A stretch of 40,091 bases of DNA from Verrucomicrobiota bacterium. Its GTDB lineage: Bacteria > Verrucomicrobiota > Verrucomicrobiia > Limisphaerales > Fontisphaeraceae. The position numbers and the translations under genes are program-made. Positions 4,254 to 19,583 of this stretch are shown here, piece after piece. The notes beneath the pieces were generated by a model. The model saw only the letters and a list, made by a program, of their open reading frames with translations, was not told the DNA's origin and made no database searches. Every line of letters starts with the position of its first letter. Within the stretch, counting starts at the first letter, position 1. Location: contig JBAXGN010000055.1 in assembly GCA_037139415.1 (NCBI GenBank), positions 1 to 40,091 of the forward strand, given 5' to 3'.

Positions 4254-5921
4254 TTAATCTTCCGGCAGCGGCTGGTCCTTGGTTTCGGGCGCCCAGATGA
4301 GGGCGACGATGCCGATCAGGTAAATGCCGCACATCGCCACAGCGACCGTGCGGAAGGGGAACATGGTGCTGAGATGGCCGAGCAGGTACGGGAACGGCGC
4401 GGCCAGGTAACGCACGGTGTTGTAGCAAAAGCCCACGCCAGTGCCGCGCAGGCGGGTGGGGTAAATTTCCGGGAAATAAATGGAATACCCCGCGAACACC
4501 GAGAGCGTGCAGAAGCCCATCAAGGGGAGCATCCAGTAAATATCCGACTCGGTCTTCAACGTGGCGAACACAAACGACACCACGCACAAGCACATCACAA
4601 ACGCGATCAGGAACGCTTTGCGGCGGTTGAAATAGGAGGCGATGAAGGTGAACGCGAACATGCCCAGCAGGGCGCCGACATCTTGCAGCATGGTCCCGCG
4701 TCCGCGCATTTTATCAATCACCTTCTGCAGGCTGTCAATCGCGCCGGGGAAAGTTTGCTCCAGCAGTTGCCGGTTGAGGAAATTGATATTTTCCGGGGCC
4801 GAATGCTTTTGCACCTGGATCACCAGGTTGGCCGTGTTTTTCTTCAAGGCAATGCCTTTGAAGGCCTCGGCATTGTAAAGATTGCCATCGTGGATCAAAC
4901 GGTTGAAATCCTGCAACAGGGCGGCAGACGCGGTATCCGGGGAGGTCTCCACCTGCTTCACCACGTCCGGGGTCATGAGGCTCTTGATGTGCGCCACGGC
5001 GGGGTTGGCCGGGGTTTTGAGGGCCTGGCAGATTTGCGCCGGCTTTAATAAATCCGCGCCATGCAACGGGCGGTTCTTCAGGGCGGTGGTGACCAATTCC
5101 GGCGAGAAGAAACCGATGCCCCACAGGCCCACCATGCCGGAGACGCCCAGGCAGATGCCCACCAACGTGCTGCGCCGCCAGCGGGGATCACGGAACAGGT
5201 CCGTGATGGATCCAACTCGTTTGGCTTTGCCGGACTGGGCGTCCGCTTTGGCTTTTTTCCAGGCCTCGGGTTCTTTGAGAACCAATAAGATCGGGATCGC
5301 CAGCAAGACCGGGGTGACGCTTACAAAAAAGATGACCTGCCAACCACTGTAATGGCCCCAATAATTCTCCAAGCCGGGAGTGATGCCCAGGCTTAACGCC
5401 GATCCGCCAATATTGCCCATGGCAGAGAGCGCCTGCATGGAGCCCAGCGCGGCAGTGCGGAATTTTGCCGGCACACTTTCCGCCACCAGCGTGGTGGCCG
5501 CCCCGAACATGCCGCCCACGCCCATGCCGCACAGGAAACGATAGATCAGGAATTCCATGCCGTTGCGCGACAGGCCGGAAAGGCCGGAGAAAATCGTGTA
5601 CGCTAGCAGGGTCGCCACCATGGCTTTGACGCGCCCGTAGCGATCGCTCATCATGCCGAAGAGCAACCCGCCGGTGCCCCAGCCGATCATCAGGATGCAG
5701 GTGGCGAGGCCGCCCCATTTCTTGACATCGCCATCGGAGGCCGTTGCGCCCAGCAATTCCTTCAAGGCGGGTTCCCGGGCCAGGATGAAAATCCGCTGGC
5801 CCATGCAGTCAAACAACCAGCCCGAGGCGGCCAGGATGAAGACCAGCCAGTGATACACCGTCACGCCTTCCAAAATGCCACCCGATTTCGGGCTGCCCGA
5901 GTTTTGTGCTGTTGTACTCAC
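4254..5921 (-). CDS. MFS transporter (sugar/metabolite-porter type) with a ~85-residue periplasmic insertion
   Basis: Inner-membrane transporter of 555 residues, about 100 longer than common 12-TM MFS proteins. Motif A (G-x-x-x-D93-R-Y-G-R97) lies after TM2, an R-x-x-x-G-M-G-V-G-G motif (128-137) marks TM4, and PEIYPTRLRGTG (484-495) is typical of the sugar-porter and AAHS/SHS-like branches. The extra length lies between TM7 (about 250-277) and TM8 (about 413-430), a loop that faces the periplasm in MFS proteins. Residues 312-398 of this insertion align with residues 843-927 of the DUF2723 protein in this window. GTG start at 5921. It heads an operon with the downstream Gfo/Idh/MocA gene. Cargo is unknown; a sugar, sugar acid or cyclitol is inferred from the neighbours. 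Confidence 0.88.
   Translation of the reverse strand: MSTTAQNSGSPKSGGILEGVTVYHWLVFILAASGWLFDCMGQRIFILAREPALKELLGATASDGDVKKWGGLATCILMIGWGTGGLLFGMMSDRYGRVKAMVATLLAYTIFSGLSGLSRNGMEFLIYRFLCGMGVGGMFGAATTLVAESVPAKFRTAALGSMQALSAMGNIGGSALSLGITPGLENYWGHYSGWQVIFFVSVTPVLLAIPILLVLKEPEAWKKAKADAQSGKAKRVGSITDLFRDPRWRRSTLVGICLGVSGMVGLWGIGFFSPELVTTALKNRPLHGADLLKPAQICQALKTPANPAVAHIKSLMTPDVVKQVETSPDTASAALLQDFNRLIHDGNLYNAEAFKGIALKKNTANLVIQVQKHSAPENINFLNRQLLEQTFPGAIDSLQKVIDKMRGRGTMLQDVGALLGMFAFTFIASYFNRRKAFLIAFVMCLCVVSFVFATLKTESDIYWMLPLMGFCTLSVFAGYSIYFPEIYPTRLRGTGVGFCYNTVRYLAAPFPYLLGHLSTMFPFRTVAVAMCGIYLIGIVALIWAPETKDQPLPED
4728..4988 (-). other. Insert module in the MFS protein (copy 1 of a shared domain)
   Basis: Segment coding residues 312-398 of the MFS transporter. 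It begins I-K-S-L-M-T-P and runs to FLNRQLLEQTFPGAIDSL. By hand alignment about a third of positions are identical to residues 843-927 of the DUF2723 protein, including G-x-L-Y, F-x-G-I-x-L, LNRxLLE and FPxxI. Predicted mostly helical. Function unknown. Confidence 0.75.
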
Positions 5922-15149: not shown

Positions 15150-15494
15150 GCACTTGTTATTATTAGACGGTCCACACTGCCAATCGTCAAGCATGTATAG
15201 TGCCAGACAGCTCCATAATCTTGAATTTTTCCAGGGACATTGAATATGGTCACCCTGTAACGTTACAGAGAAATCTAACCGCCACCGCGAGCTTACACCA
15301 CATGGCCCCCCTTGGTCCTATTTTAGCCGTGTCGCTGTCTCAAATCGGGACAAGGATCGAATTAGATGTCCTGTTTAGTTTATGCAACGTTCTGGGTTCG
15401 CATTTTACTAGTTTTCGGTGGACAATTGGCGAAATTAGCTTAGAACTAGGCCCTCATTTTGCCGGAAGGTGAAAGACGATTGCTAATTGACACA
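15150..15494. promoter_or_regulatory. Divergent intergenic region between minor-pilin operon and DUF2723 gene
   Basis: About 345 bp, more AT-rich than the flanking genes, with no convincing gene. Promoters for both directions must lie here, but no strong -35/-10 pair stands out. A perfect 14-bp palindrome is at 15255-15268. A GGAAGGTGAAAGA purine tract at 15463-15475 precedes the DUF2723 starts. Confidence 0.4.
15255..15268. promoter_or_regulatory. Perfect 14-bp palindrome, candidate operator
   Basis: CTGTAACGTTACAG is fully self-complementary and lies about 106 bp upstream of the pilin start and 227 bp upstream of the DUF2723 start. Its size and position suit a dimeric repressor or activator site; the regulator is unknown. 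Confidence 0.4.
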
Positions 15495-18400
15495 ATGAAC
15501 GGCGACCAACAACCAATTGACCCGATGGGCAAGCCAGCGGCTCCTGCCCCAGAAACCATCATGGCCACACCTCCTCAAAGCGCGCCGGACACATTCAAAC
15601 CCAAACTGGCCAAACCAACACCTCCAGCAGCAGCAGCGGTTGCCTCAAACAGCCCGGTGCCGCCCATGTTCCGCTGGATTGATTGGATGACTTTTGCCGT
15701 CACGGCGATCATCGTATTTACCGGGTACATGTTAAGCCGCGCCCCGAATGTGACACTGGAAGACTCCGGCGAACTGGCAGTGGGTTCCTTCTATGCCGGG
15801 GTGCCGCACCCGCCCGGATACCCATTCTGGAGCATTCTCACCTGGCTGTTCACGGAACTCATCCCTTTCAAAAACGTCGCCTGGCGGGTCTCGATGGAAT
15901 CCACCCTCGCGGGGGTGTTCCTGTGCGCCCTGATCGCGATGATGATTTCGCGGGGGAGCAGCATGTTGATTGAGAGTATTGAAGAATTCAAAGACATCCC
16001 TAAAAAATGGGAGAACCCGATCTGCCTGTGTGCGGGCTATGTCGGAGGTCTGTTGATGGCTTTTAACGGATTCATGTGGAGCCAGTGCGTCATTGTGGAG
16101 GTGTATTCCCTGGCGGTGTTTTCATTTATACTCATGTCGGTTTTCCTGATGCGCTGGATGTACGCGCCGCATCAGAACCGTTACCTGTACCTGGCGCTGT
16201 TCATGTTTGGCCTGTGCTTTACCAATCACCAAAGCCTGCTCATGGCCGCCGTGGGTGTGCAAGTGGCGATTATCGCCTCGAATCCAAGGGTGGGACGCGA
16301 CATGCTTTTCTTCAACAGCATCATCTTCATCATTGCGCAGATCATGCGGGCAACCGGGCATCTGAAGCAGTTGGAAAACGCGCCGGGCTCGATCAATATG
16401 ATTTACGTTCTGTTTAACATCATCGGCGTCGGTTCGATGGTGGGACTTGGTTTCCTGAGCTATAAGACGAAAAAGTTGCTGACCGAGTTTAAAACGGTTT
16501 TTTATGGCGGCCTGGCCTATGTGGGCGGCGTTTCCTTTTACCTGTTCATGCCGCTGTCCTCCATGTCCAACCCGCCCATGAACTGGGGCTACGCCCGTAC
16601 CGTCGAGGGGTTCATTCACGCATTCACCCGCGGCCAGTATGAAAAGTTCAATCCTAGCAATCTGCTCAACGATCCCGCACGGTTTGTGCGGCAGATGTGG
16701 GAATACTTTGGCGGCATGGTAAGCGAGTTTAGCTTGGTGTATCTAACGCTGGCGGTCATACCCTTTGTCTTCCTCATTCTCCACGTGTTGCGCGAAGGGG
16801 GCATGAAACATCTGTTACGGATCGCATACACCACCGTTGGCATGTTGGCGGCCTTCTGCCTGGTACTCATCACGGCCGGGAAACTGGTGAATTTGAGTTA
16901 CCTGTTCTGGATCGTTTTCTTCATTTTGGCGTGCGTGAACCTCGTGTTCCTCATGATGATGGTGTATGACCACATGCAGAAGATTGAACGTGCCTGGCTG
17001 GTCGGGCTATCCGGGGTGTATTTCTGCCTTTCAGTATTGCTGCTCATCATGCTCAATCCCGCGCCGGATCGTCAAAGCCAGGAGTTGAACCGCGTTTTCC
17101 TGACTTCGTCACACGCGCAGGTGGCCATGTTCATCGGCTACGGTCTGGCGCTCGCGGCCACCGCGTTACTGATGCAGCCGGCACGGTTCCGAAAACTGGC
17201 CCTGACGGTGACGGTCGTAGCCGCCGGCGTGGCGCTGTATTCCATGGCGTGCGTCTTTGCCAACGTGGACGAACCCGGCGATGTGGATAGCTGGATTTCC
17301 TCCATCATGCCCGAGGCCAGCAAAAGTCCGATCAAACGGTTCACCGCCTTGTACGGCGTGGGCGTCGCCGTGCTGGCCATGCTCGCCGTATTCATCACCC
17401 GTGCCCGAGTCACGGTGGGGTTGCTGCTGGGCGTTTACCTGCTGATGCCGTTGCGATCTGTAGTGGCCCACTGGGCAGACAATGAACAGTTTGGCCACAT
17501 GTTTGGCTATTGGTTCGGACACGATATGTTCACCCCGCCATTCAAAGGCAAAGACAACCAGCCCTTGTACCCCGAAATGACGCGGGATGCAGTGCTCTTT
17601 GGCGGCACGGACCCGGGCCGTTTTTGCCCCACCTACATGATCTTCTGCGAAAGCTTCATCAAAGCGTCGCAACGGCAATCCTGCGACCCGAATTTTGACC
17701 GGCGCGACGTGTATCTGATCACCCAGAATGCGCTGGCGGATGGCACCTATTTGAATTACATCCGCGCCCACTATAACCGCAGCGCTCAGATTGATCCGCC
17801 CTTCTTCCAAGAAGTGGTTCGCGTTGGTGACCAGCCGCTTCAGAGCAATCTTTTGTCCCGCATGGTCGCACCACTGGACACCTTATTCCTCGGCTTGGGG
17901 GACCGCATCGAAAAGCGGCGGCGGGCCGGCAGCTCGTTCTTCCAGGATGGCGATTTCACCGACTTGGCTGGCTTTGCCCGCAAATTGAATGACCGGGAGG
18001 CTTCGCCGTTCGCCAACTTCATCAAACAGAAACTGAGTCCGGCAACCGTTCAAAAGCTTGGCACGCCAGATAAGGCATTGGCACACACCCTGGCCGAGGA
18101 TCTCAATGGGCTGCTTGAAAGCGGTTTGCTCTATGAATCCAATCGTTTTGCGGGAATCAACCTCACTCCTCGCACGCAAAAGTTCCTGGCCCAGAATCCG
18201 CAGAGCCACACCCGCATACGCCTGAACCGGCTGTTGCTTGAAGAGGCGTTCCCGAAAGAGATTGCCAAGAGCCTTGGCGGTGTTTATCCCGACCGCGAAA
18301 TCATCACCCCCAGCCCGATGGATTCACAACGGTGCTTTCAGGAGTATCTTGACGACGTGCAGAAACGCTTGCAGAAGAACCAACTGCATCCGGGGGAAGA

Positions 18401-19583
18401 CGTGCGCGTGGATGGCGGGCGCGTGCAGGTCTCAGGCCAAGTGGCGGTCATGGCCATCAATGGCCTGCTCACCAAGGTTATCTTTGACCAGAATCCGAAT
18501 CATGAATTCTTCGTCGAGGAAAGTTTCCCGCTGGAGTGGATGTATCCCTACCTCACGCCGTTCGGGATCATTATGAAGATTAACCGACGCCCGCTGTCGG
18601 AATTGCCGCAGGAGGTTATTGATCGTGATCATGAATTCTGGAGCCAGTATTCCGAGCGCACGGTGGGTAACTGGATTACGTATGATACGCCGGTGTCGAA
18701 TATCTGCCATTTTGCCGAGAAGGTGTATTTGCACCGCGACTATTCGGGATTCACGGGCGATCCCAAGTTCATCCGTGATGATGACGCCCAGAAGGCGTTT
18801 TCAAAACTGCGCAGTTCGATTGCTGGAATTTATAACTGGCGCGTCATGAATGCGCATTCCCAATCGGAACGGGATCGCATGCTCAAGGAGGCGGAGTTCG
18901 CCTTCAAACAAGCGCTGGCCTATTGCCCCTACAGCCCGGAAGCCGTCTTCCGCTATGTCAATCTGCTCCTGGGGCTCAACCAGGCCAACCGCATTGATGA
19001 TGCCATACTGATAGCCAAGACCTTCAAGCGCCTGGATCCTGGTAACGGACAGGTCACCGATCTGATTGGTAAACTGACTGATATTCGGAAAAACATCGCG
19101 CAAACTTCGGAAATGCAGGGGAAGCTTGGGCTGTTAGAAGCCAACTTCCGCGCGGACGGCAATGTGTCCAACGCCTTTGCGCTCGCCAATGTCTATATGG
19201 CGACCCAAAAAACGAATCAGGCCGTGGCCGTGCTGGGCCAGGCACTCGTCCATCCCAGCCTGGATTACAACGGGTGTGTGTCCCTCGCGAATGCCTTCGT
19301 CACGCTGAATAACGTCGGGATGCTGGAACAGGCCCTACTGCGCCTGGTCAAGCTGTCCTCCACAAACCCGGAGTCATGGTACGACCTTGCGGGCGTGCAA
19401 GCCATCATCATGAAAAACAAGGAAGCCCTCGAGTCGCTCGAAAAAGCGCTGGATTTGAGCAATGCCCGTTTGAAAGAGGACAACAAAAGCCGTAACCTCT
19501 ACAACGAAATGCTTAAAGACCCGCGCTTTAACAATCTGCGCGGACTGCCTGAATTCGCCAAGTTGCTGGATCGCAAACCATAG
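15495..19583 (+). CDS. DUF2723 (GT-C-type, family 117-like) membrane glycosyltransferase with TPR C-terminus
   Basis: A 1362-residue protein. A Pro/Ala-rich N-terminal tail precedes about 14 TM helices (residues 57-660). The first outer loop has LEDSGELAVGSFYAGVPHPPGYP, the DUF2723 signature holding the acidic catalytic residues of GT-C enzymes that use lipid-linked sugars. The soluble part (about 665-1362, expected periplasmic) has FGGTDPGRFCPTY, a module at 843-927 shared with the MFS protein of this window, and TPR-like repeats from about 1120 to the end. Relatives are linked to protein O-glycosylation in Bacteroidetes; that role is inferred. ATG 15495 is the conservative start; TTG 15480 or 15459 with GGTGAAAG upstream are alternatives. 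Transcription probably ends at the terminator at 19808-19846. Confidence 0.85.
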   Translation: MNGDQQPIDPMGKPAAPAPETIMATPPQSAPDTFKPKLAKPTPPAAAAVASNSPVPPMFRWIDWMTFAVTAIIVFTGYMLSRAPNVTLEDSGELAVGSFYAGVPHPPGYPFWSILTWLFTELIPFKNVAWRVSMESTLAGVFLCALIAMMISRGSSMLIESIEEFKDIPKKWENPICLCAGYVGGLLMAFNGFMWSQCVIVEVYSLAVFSFILMSVFLMRWMYAPHQNRYLYLALFMFGLCFTNHQSLLMAAVGVQVAIIASNPRVGRDMLFFNSIIFIIAQIMRATGHLKQLENAPGSINMIYVLFNIIGVGSMVGLGFLSYKTKKLLTEFKTVFYGGLAYVGGVSFYLFMPLSSMSNPPMNWGYARTVEGFIHAFTRGQYEKFNPSNLLNDPARFVRQMWEYFGGMVSEFSLVYLTLAVIPFVFLILHVLREGGMKHLLRIAYTTVGMLAAFCLVLITAGKLVNLSYLFWIVFFILACVNLVFLMMMVYDHMQKIERAWLVGLSGVYFCLSVLLLIMLNPAPDRQSQELNRVFLTSSHAQVAMFIGYGLALAATALLMQPARFRKLALTVTVVAAGVALYSMACVFANVDEPGDVDSWISSIMPEASKSPIKRFTALYGVGVAVLAMLAVFITRARVTVGLLLGVYLLMPLRSVVAHWADNEQFGHMFGYWFGHDMFTPPFKGKDNQPLYPEMTRDAVLFGGTDPGRFCPTYMIFCESFIKASQRQSCDPNFDRRDVYLITQNALADGTYLNYIRAHYNRSAQIDPPFFQEVVRVGDQPLQSNLLSRMVAPLDTLFLGLGDRIEKRRRAGSSFFQDGDFTDLAGFARKLNDREASPFANFIKQKLSPATVQKLGTPDKALAHTLAEDLNGLLESGLLYESNRFAGINLTPRTQKFLAQNPQSHTRIRLNRLLLEEAFPKEIAKSLGGVYPDREIITPSPMDSQRCFQEYLDDVQKRLQKNQLHPGEDVRVDGGRVQVSGQVAVMAINGLLTKVIFDQNPNHEFFVEESFPLEWMYPYLTPFGIIMKINRRPLSELPQEVIDRDHEFWSQYSERTVGNWITYDTPVSNICHFAEKVYLHRDYSGFTGDPKFIRDDDAQKAFSKLRSSIAGIYNWRVMNAHSQSERDRMLKEAEFAFKQALAYCPYSPEAVFRYVNLLLGLNQANRIDDAILIAKTFKRLDPGNGQVTDLIGKLTDIRKNIAQTSEMQGKLGLLEANFRADGNVSNAFALANVYMATQKTNQAVAVLGQALVHPSLDYNGCVSLANAFVTLNNVGMLEQALLRLVKLSSTNPESWYDLAGVQAIIMKNKEALESLEKALDLSNARLKEDNKSRNLYNEMLKDPRFNNLRGLPEFAKLLDRKP
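18021..18275 (+). other. Shared module in the DUF2723 protein (copy 2)
   Basis: Codes residues 843-927, beginning I-K-Q-K-L-S-P and ending with LNRLLLEEAFPKEIAKSL. It lies between the membrane domain and the TPR repeats, and aligns almost without gaps with residues 312-398 of the MFS transporter. Confidence 0.75.

Follow-up and report, generated by a model that had tools for sequence, protein, structure and literature searches.

Two membrane proteins encoded in the window, as we call the whole stretch of 40,091 nucleotides analysed here (contig JBAXGN010000055.1 of a Verrucomicrobiota bacterium, order Limisphaerales), share a segment which is, with good probability, a plug-in domain of 113-122 residues that spreads in the form of a small non-autonomous transposable element, translated in frame with its host. 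Four copies found elsewhere have the structure of a transposable element. The remaining copies, the window pair included, would have the same transposon origin, judging from shared sequence, shared ends and empty sites.

The shared segment, its limits and its predicted fold

The two host genes and the two copies of the module are the following.

4254..5921, minus strand: MFS transporter host gene (555 aa; MFS_1 PF07690, E=1.2e-31, in two stretches)
15459..19583, plus strand: DUF2723/TMEM260-like host gene with C-terminal TPR matches (1374 aa; PF11028, E=3.5e-26, residues 102-272)
4728..5066, minus strand: module in the MFS transporter, TM7-TM8 loop (residues 286-398; limits set by 14 module-less orthologues)
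17931..18272, plus strand: module in the DUF2723/TMEM260-like protein (residues ~825-938; limits set by profile, not by an empty site)

The first-pass annotation of this DNA had described the MFS protein as about 100 residues too long and part of it as about one third identical to a segment of the DUF2723 protein. The resemblance is real, since BLASTP of one ORF against the other gave 31 identities over 92 residues (34%, E=2e-9). No Pfam family covered the shared segment in a search of both ORFs. In the aligned set of thirty MFS orthologues, window protein included, the module is present in sixteen and absent from fourteen. The module-less orthologues are 58-67% identical and belong to the same order as the window, and in these proteins the host sequence is continuous, with for example ...STALKGEP joined directly to QKVVDTVR.... 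As the empty sites are exact, the insert can be defined as residues 286-398, and the excess length measures 113 aa with zero host residues lost. On the tree of the MFS host, presence and absence of the module amount to two changes, which may be gains or losses, and the best-supported branches are compatible with one origin.

The limits given at first (312-398 in the MFS protein, 843-927 in the DUF2723 protein) mark the same segment but are too short, the true ones being 286-398 and about 825-938. Alignment of 141 extended copies puts the module start about 25 residues ahead of the first-noted N-terminal limit, the extra part reading F-x3-D-F-x-D-L-x2-L-A-x-K-L, and shows a sharp C-terminal boundary right after Y-P-x-E-I.

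A profile built from the two copies detected three further copies in the same genome (E 6e-15 to 3e-13), located in a second MFS protein, a second DUF2723 protein and an MlaD protein. The search of relatives gave module matches in 42 of 58 sampled genomes, own genome included. Given the low E values of the three own-genome copies and the 42 genomes matched, the matches are far above chance. Iterated profiles yielded 100 module matches, some of them from overlapping loci. The profile search of both copies, which had been proposed as a check, recovered many different hosts and not two chance-level matches only. Two stretches of the own genome may be decayed copies: a weak match with an internal TGA (G000:C211:2616-2849, E=0.098) and a half copy adjoining the module of the second DUF2723 protein (G000:C104:14433-14558).

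Both window copies are predicted to adopt a confident fold with paired ends. AlphaFold2 gave pLDDT 92.2 and pTM 0.85 for the DUF2723 copy (70-row alignment) and pLDDT 93.4 and pTM 0.86 for the MFS copy (44-row alignment). The two models, compared by helix order and confidence and built from input alignments which share rows, have six helices in identical order. Each contains only two bridge residues, near both ends of the module (14 and 116 in one, 16 and 120 in the other), which places the predicted ends side by side.

For 61 module members, in an alignment drawn from 74 selected modules, NCBIfam gave 0 matches and Pfam no family beyond one weak match (DUF6538, E=0.007). Sequence searches showed no relative of solved structure, the best E among PDB sequences being 0.58. 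Foldseek returned nothing at E<=0.001 (best E 4.2 in PDB and 1.6 in BFVD), and VIA-align returned no hit at Z>=2 among 93 chains. Judged by titles and abstract openings, no publication naming the module was found.

Host proteins, membrane side and distribution

After removal of 46 out of 231 host ORFs which were contained in longer ORFs, the remaining 185 form 95 groups, unrelated to one another in sequence outside the module; one of these groups (L231) is a fragment of another. The earlier idea of a mobile module grafted onto unrelated membrane proteins is supported; what it lacked is the transposable-element structure of four copies found elsewhere. Pfam was run on 62 full-length proteins out of the 185 hosts, both window proteins included, and for 12 of the 60 non-window proteins it gave no family at E<=0.01. 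Families named among the hosts include MFS, DUF2723, histidine kinase, MMPL, YfhO, multihaem cytochrome, MlaD, BrkB, phosphodiester glycosidase, ABC permeases, an ABC exporter, FtsW/RodA, a CAAX-type protease, PHO4, LptD_N, LptE, TatC, MscS, MurJ, a trypsin-PDZ protein, AI-2E, PTS EIIC and GntP. Hosts of the cytoplasmic side, also by Pfam, are SecA, GyrA, a uridine-kinase-type protein, RT-Cas1, a serine recombinase and Mob_Pre relaxases.

Some of the hosts form particular sets. Tandem modules, repeated every 122-125 residues (mostly 122), occur in LptE and LptD_N-type proteins (L126, L136, L171, L114 and L108). Near-identical Mob_Pre relaxases carrying the module were found at four loci (L146, L152, L234 and L236), the last two in different genomes of the same genus. 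Five loci of genus g43 (L229, L230, L231, L233 and L238) encode a second kind of MFS protein with the module directly after the first transmembrane segment. Six very long ORFs (L163, L167, L169, L173, L183 and L191) match only positions 25-91 of the profile, approximately its last two thirds, and are perhaps a truncated or separate subfamily of the module.

Membrane side was assigned per host group by a local positive-inside score, with transmembrane segments predicted by crude hydropathy. A module flanked by transmembrane segments on both sides is outside in 21 of 25 groups and inside in none, with four ties; with a single flanking segment, equally by crude hydropathy, there were 6 groups outside, 4 inside and 2 ties. 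By the same crude measure 23 host groups have no predicted transmembrane segment. There is an outward bias in membrane hosts, yet the module is not confined to the periplasm. The description as a periplasmic domain, made from the window copies, agrees with the loop-inserted groups but not with GyrA, SecA and the relaxases, and a periplasm-specific function was rejected once these and other cytoplasmic hosts turned up. Random insertion alone does not predict the outward bias in membrane hosts, and we count this against a plug-in transposon.

The module is under constraint, and the constraint is looser than that of the host: in the closest 40 of 115 computed pairs, dN/dS was 0.07-0.49 for modules and 0.03-0.23 for hosts. 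We attribute this to a requirement that the module remain folded within a functional host, with a function possibly gained in some hosts. Synonymous codons at conserved positions mostly track host usage, the exceptions being AAC at an invariant Asn (z 5.3) and a few Leu codons (z 2-3). Constraint on the conserved motif at the DNA level was rejected, codon choice being mostly as in the host. Copies in different hosts share at most about 54% protein identity when the same-MFS fragment L231 is set aside, from which it follows that most insertions are old. No recent copies in different hosts were detected by DNA or protein identity.

Within the order of the window, 208 of 293 genomes have a module match at E<=1e-5, the richest with at least 11 copies, and in the phylum sample the module was found in 8 of 288 genomes, own genome included; these counts per genome are lower bounds, as 17-18 candidates were scored in each. 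In viral contigs the module is present in 3 of 64 pattern stretches. Records for 80 of 117 confirmed loci name Pedosphaera, Limisphaerales and other Verrucomicrobia, together with Nitrospirae, Planctomycetota, Armatimonadetes, Omnitrophota, Latescibacterota, Acidobacteriaceae, Gordonia and others. For some MAGs the label is apparently wrong, e.g. Klebsiella pneumoniae for L121. The module, at first assigned to this lineage, is thus concentrated there but not confined to it.

Outward bias of the loop-inserted hosts, purifying selection on the module, its concentration in one order and the many hosts of envelope biogenesis (e.g. TatC, MurJ, LptE, LptD_N and MlaD) would all suit an adaptor domain that recombination has shuffled between envelope proteins and that is retained for a positive role of its own, such as protein contact or envelope localisation. 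We consider this unlikely, in view of the cytoplasmic hosts GyrA, SecA and relaxases, the four copies with transposon ends and target duplications, the same-order orthologues which lack the module, and the mixed side of modules with a single flanking transmembrane segment. A role of this kind had been suggested in the first-pass annotation and is not supported, the module interrupting cytoplasmic proteins as well.

Inverted repeats, target duplications and a candidate mobiliser

Four of 208 copies, from three other genomes, have inverted-repeat ends (near GGCTCTTCGCTATTT) and 8-bp target duplications (8/8 or 7/8). These fresh elements measure 346-361 bp, and all lengths are 3n+1, so that element and 8-bp duplication together lengthen the host gene by a multiple of three. 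The module frame is free of stops starting with the first base of the repeat, and accordingly the end motifs GSSLF and EIAKS are translated repeat; the other five frames contain 3-17 stops each. There is no transposase gene within the element. Reading-frame selection may have shaped both the length and the frame of the element; the protein profile detects in-frame copies only.

The first of the four, in a Latescibacterota MAG (L182), interrupts a protein that looks zinc-finger-like by eye and reads ...CHLIFLKRKN-[module]-RKNNIRYC..., with RKN flanking both sides. In its DNA the module starts with GGCTCCTCGCTGTTT, ends with the inverse of GGCTCTTCGCTATTT and has GGAAAAAC on both flanks. A Brocadiia MAG carries a 346-bp element with AAAGTTTA on either side (L159/L310) and a 361-bp element flanked by GCAAAAGC and TCAAAAGC within a 927-aa ORF, kinase-like by eye (L309). 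The fourth, from a Planctomycetota MAG (L161), where the host is the uridine-kinase-type protein, is a 352-bp element with a duplication of 7/8.

When inverted repeat (15) and 8-bp duplication were scored jointly over 208 copies, the four elements reached 19-22, compared to a maximum of 18 among about 1250 shuffled pairings given the same freedom as the real copies. With the register fixed by the repeat, 7 or 8 of the 8 duplication bases agreed in 5 of 167 copies against 0.1 expected. With the register not fixed, direct repeats near the ends showed no overall excess in 167 copies. Copies cut short at either end were omitted from all three sets. In the 18 copies whose ends are most repeat-like, the length is 3n+1 in 13, 3n in four and 3n+2 in one, the register being uncertain in eroded copies. 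The Brocadiia genome G582, with 14 module matches, contains 35 sites within two mismatches of the repeat, compared to 9 for a reversed control. On its contig C447 a lone perfect repeat (L310, 2804-2818) lies in the same ORF as an intact element and 285 bp from it; it translates as DAYPREIAKS and is apparently the C-terminal remnant of an older copy.

The marks are restricted in their occurrence. Neither window copy has an intact inverted repeat or a duplication, intact ends were not found among copies from the order of the window, and all four repeat-bearing copies are from MAGs outside it. Exact repeat pairs occur in G582 alone (two elements) among 294 genomes of its phylum, and the exact pair pattern was found 0 times in viral contigs. 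This restriction would agree with an ancient protein family that owes its spread mostly to ordinary recombination, the four repeat-bearing copies being a side branch captured by a miniature element of ISL3 type. Such a history seems to us quite improbable, as the residues encoded by the repeat, S-S-x-F at the start and E-I-A-K at the end, are frequent among copies from many hosts and phyla, and exact in-frame insertion in 95 host groups has no ready reason under recombination.

Inteins favour core proteins such as GyrA and SecA, both of which are interrupted here, and an intein-like element removing itself from the protein was rejected as very improbable on its end residues, which vary and show neither a conserved Cys/Ser start nor a His-Asn end, the more so as 0 of 61 module members match a Pfam intein family at E<=0.01 and the inserts seem to lie mostly in loops.

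Duplications of 8 bp and ends starting with GG point, as we take it, to the ISL3 family. The transposase domain PF01610 was found in three of seven genomes searched, with eight matches in G514 (a genome from the order of the window), one in G580 and one in G582, the last on the contig that carries the L159 element. It was found neither in the genome of the window (G000) nor in G581, which bears a fresh copy. One of the ISL3 insertion sequences (IS) in G514 is bounded by a perfect 26-bp inverted repeat, GGTTCTCCGCTGTTTTCGGTGGAACC, the first 24 bases of which agree with the eight element ends at 13-18 positions. Of the 47,360 positions in the four loci, the seven with the best agreement (16-18/24) comprise six element ends plus a lone repeat. 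The ends of two further ISL3 IS of G514 match the elements less (10-14/24). The IS with the element-like ends has no target duplication (3/8), and another G514 ISL3 IS has one of 8 bp (8/8). On these sequence comparisons an ISL3-type transposase is a likely candidate for the mobiliser of the module element.

Proposed explanation and comparison with known systems

In the explanation we favour, the plug-in transposon, an ISL3-type transposase would move the element in trans. The inverted repeats, as in the four fresh copies, double as coding sequence for the two termini of the domain (roughly GSSLF and EIAKS). An insertion in the right orientation and phase would give the host an added domain, and since the ends of the inserted domain are predicted to pair, the host protein could still fold. 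The domain would be retained chiefly because a misfolded insert would spoil the host. The two copies of the window would be old insertions, inherited with their hosts, whose repeats have eroded. It seems somewhat more probable than its opposite that the element represents a class of transposon travelling as protein, with no gene of its own and no stop, whose repeats double as domain ends, whose 3n+1 length lets the 8-bp duplication restore the frame, and whose harmless globular fold with adjoining ends leaves proteins as central as GyrA, SecA, TatC and MurJ functional and allows long persistence in several phyla.

If this is correct, a DNA transposon has adapted to life within coding sequence by evolving a protein fold, and a single element has supplied about ninety protein groups, core machinery included, with a domain. 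It would represent a natural route for domain insertion, with a predicted fold unmatched among solved structures. The many natural insertion sites would be a map of plug-in tolerance, which protein engineers seek through screening, and the entry of new domains into the middle of old proteins would become directly testable.

The element resembles MITEs in its inverted-repeat ends, target duplication and absence of a transposase gene, features seen in four of 208 copies and not in the window copies. It differs from MITEs and from ISL3 IS in having one frame open end to end and ends which double as protein sequence, whereas the ISL3 IS compared is 1327 bp long and has its own transposase ORF of 433 aa. 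Enterobacterial RU elements of 103-168 bp (PMC2759123) and PARCELs, which are 25-residue tandem repeats (PMC2996958), are similar in that they are coding elements, mobile or repeated, from which host ORFs gain extra peptide; the abstracts of these two reports do not describe core proteins with a globular domain of about 115 residues. The closest description is that of the Rickettsia palindromic elements (RPEs), small repeated DNA of about 150 bp and about ten families, reported in Rickettsia in frame within unrelated genes and translated with the host protein (PMC10969869). As far as that description goes, the likeness lies in one element being in frame inside unrelated genes and part of the host protein. 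The module element differs from the RPEs described there (PMC10969869) in being one family of 346-361 bp with inverted-repeat ends and 8-bp duplications, and in encoding a domain conserved in sequence and predicted fold in several phyla. By analogy, it would act like a Rickettsia palindromic element, but one with transposon ends, an 8-bp duplication and a single domain found in several phyla.
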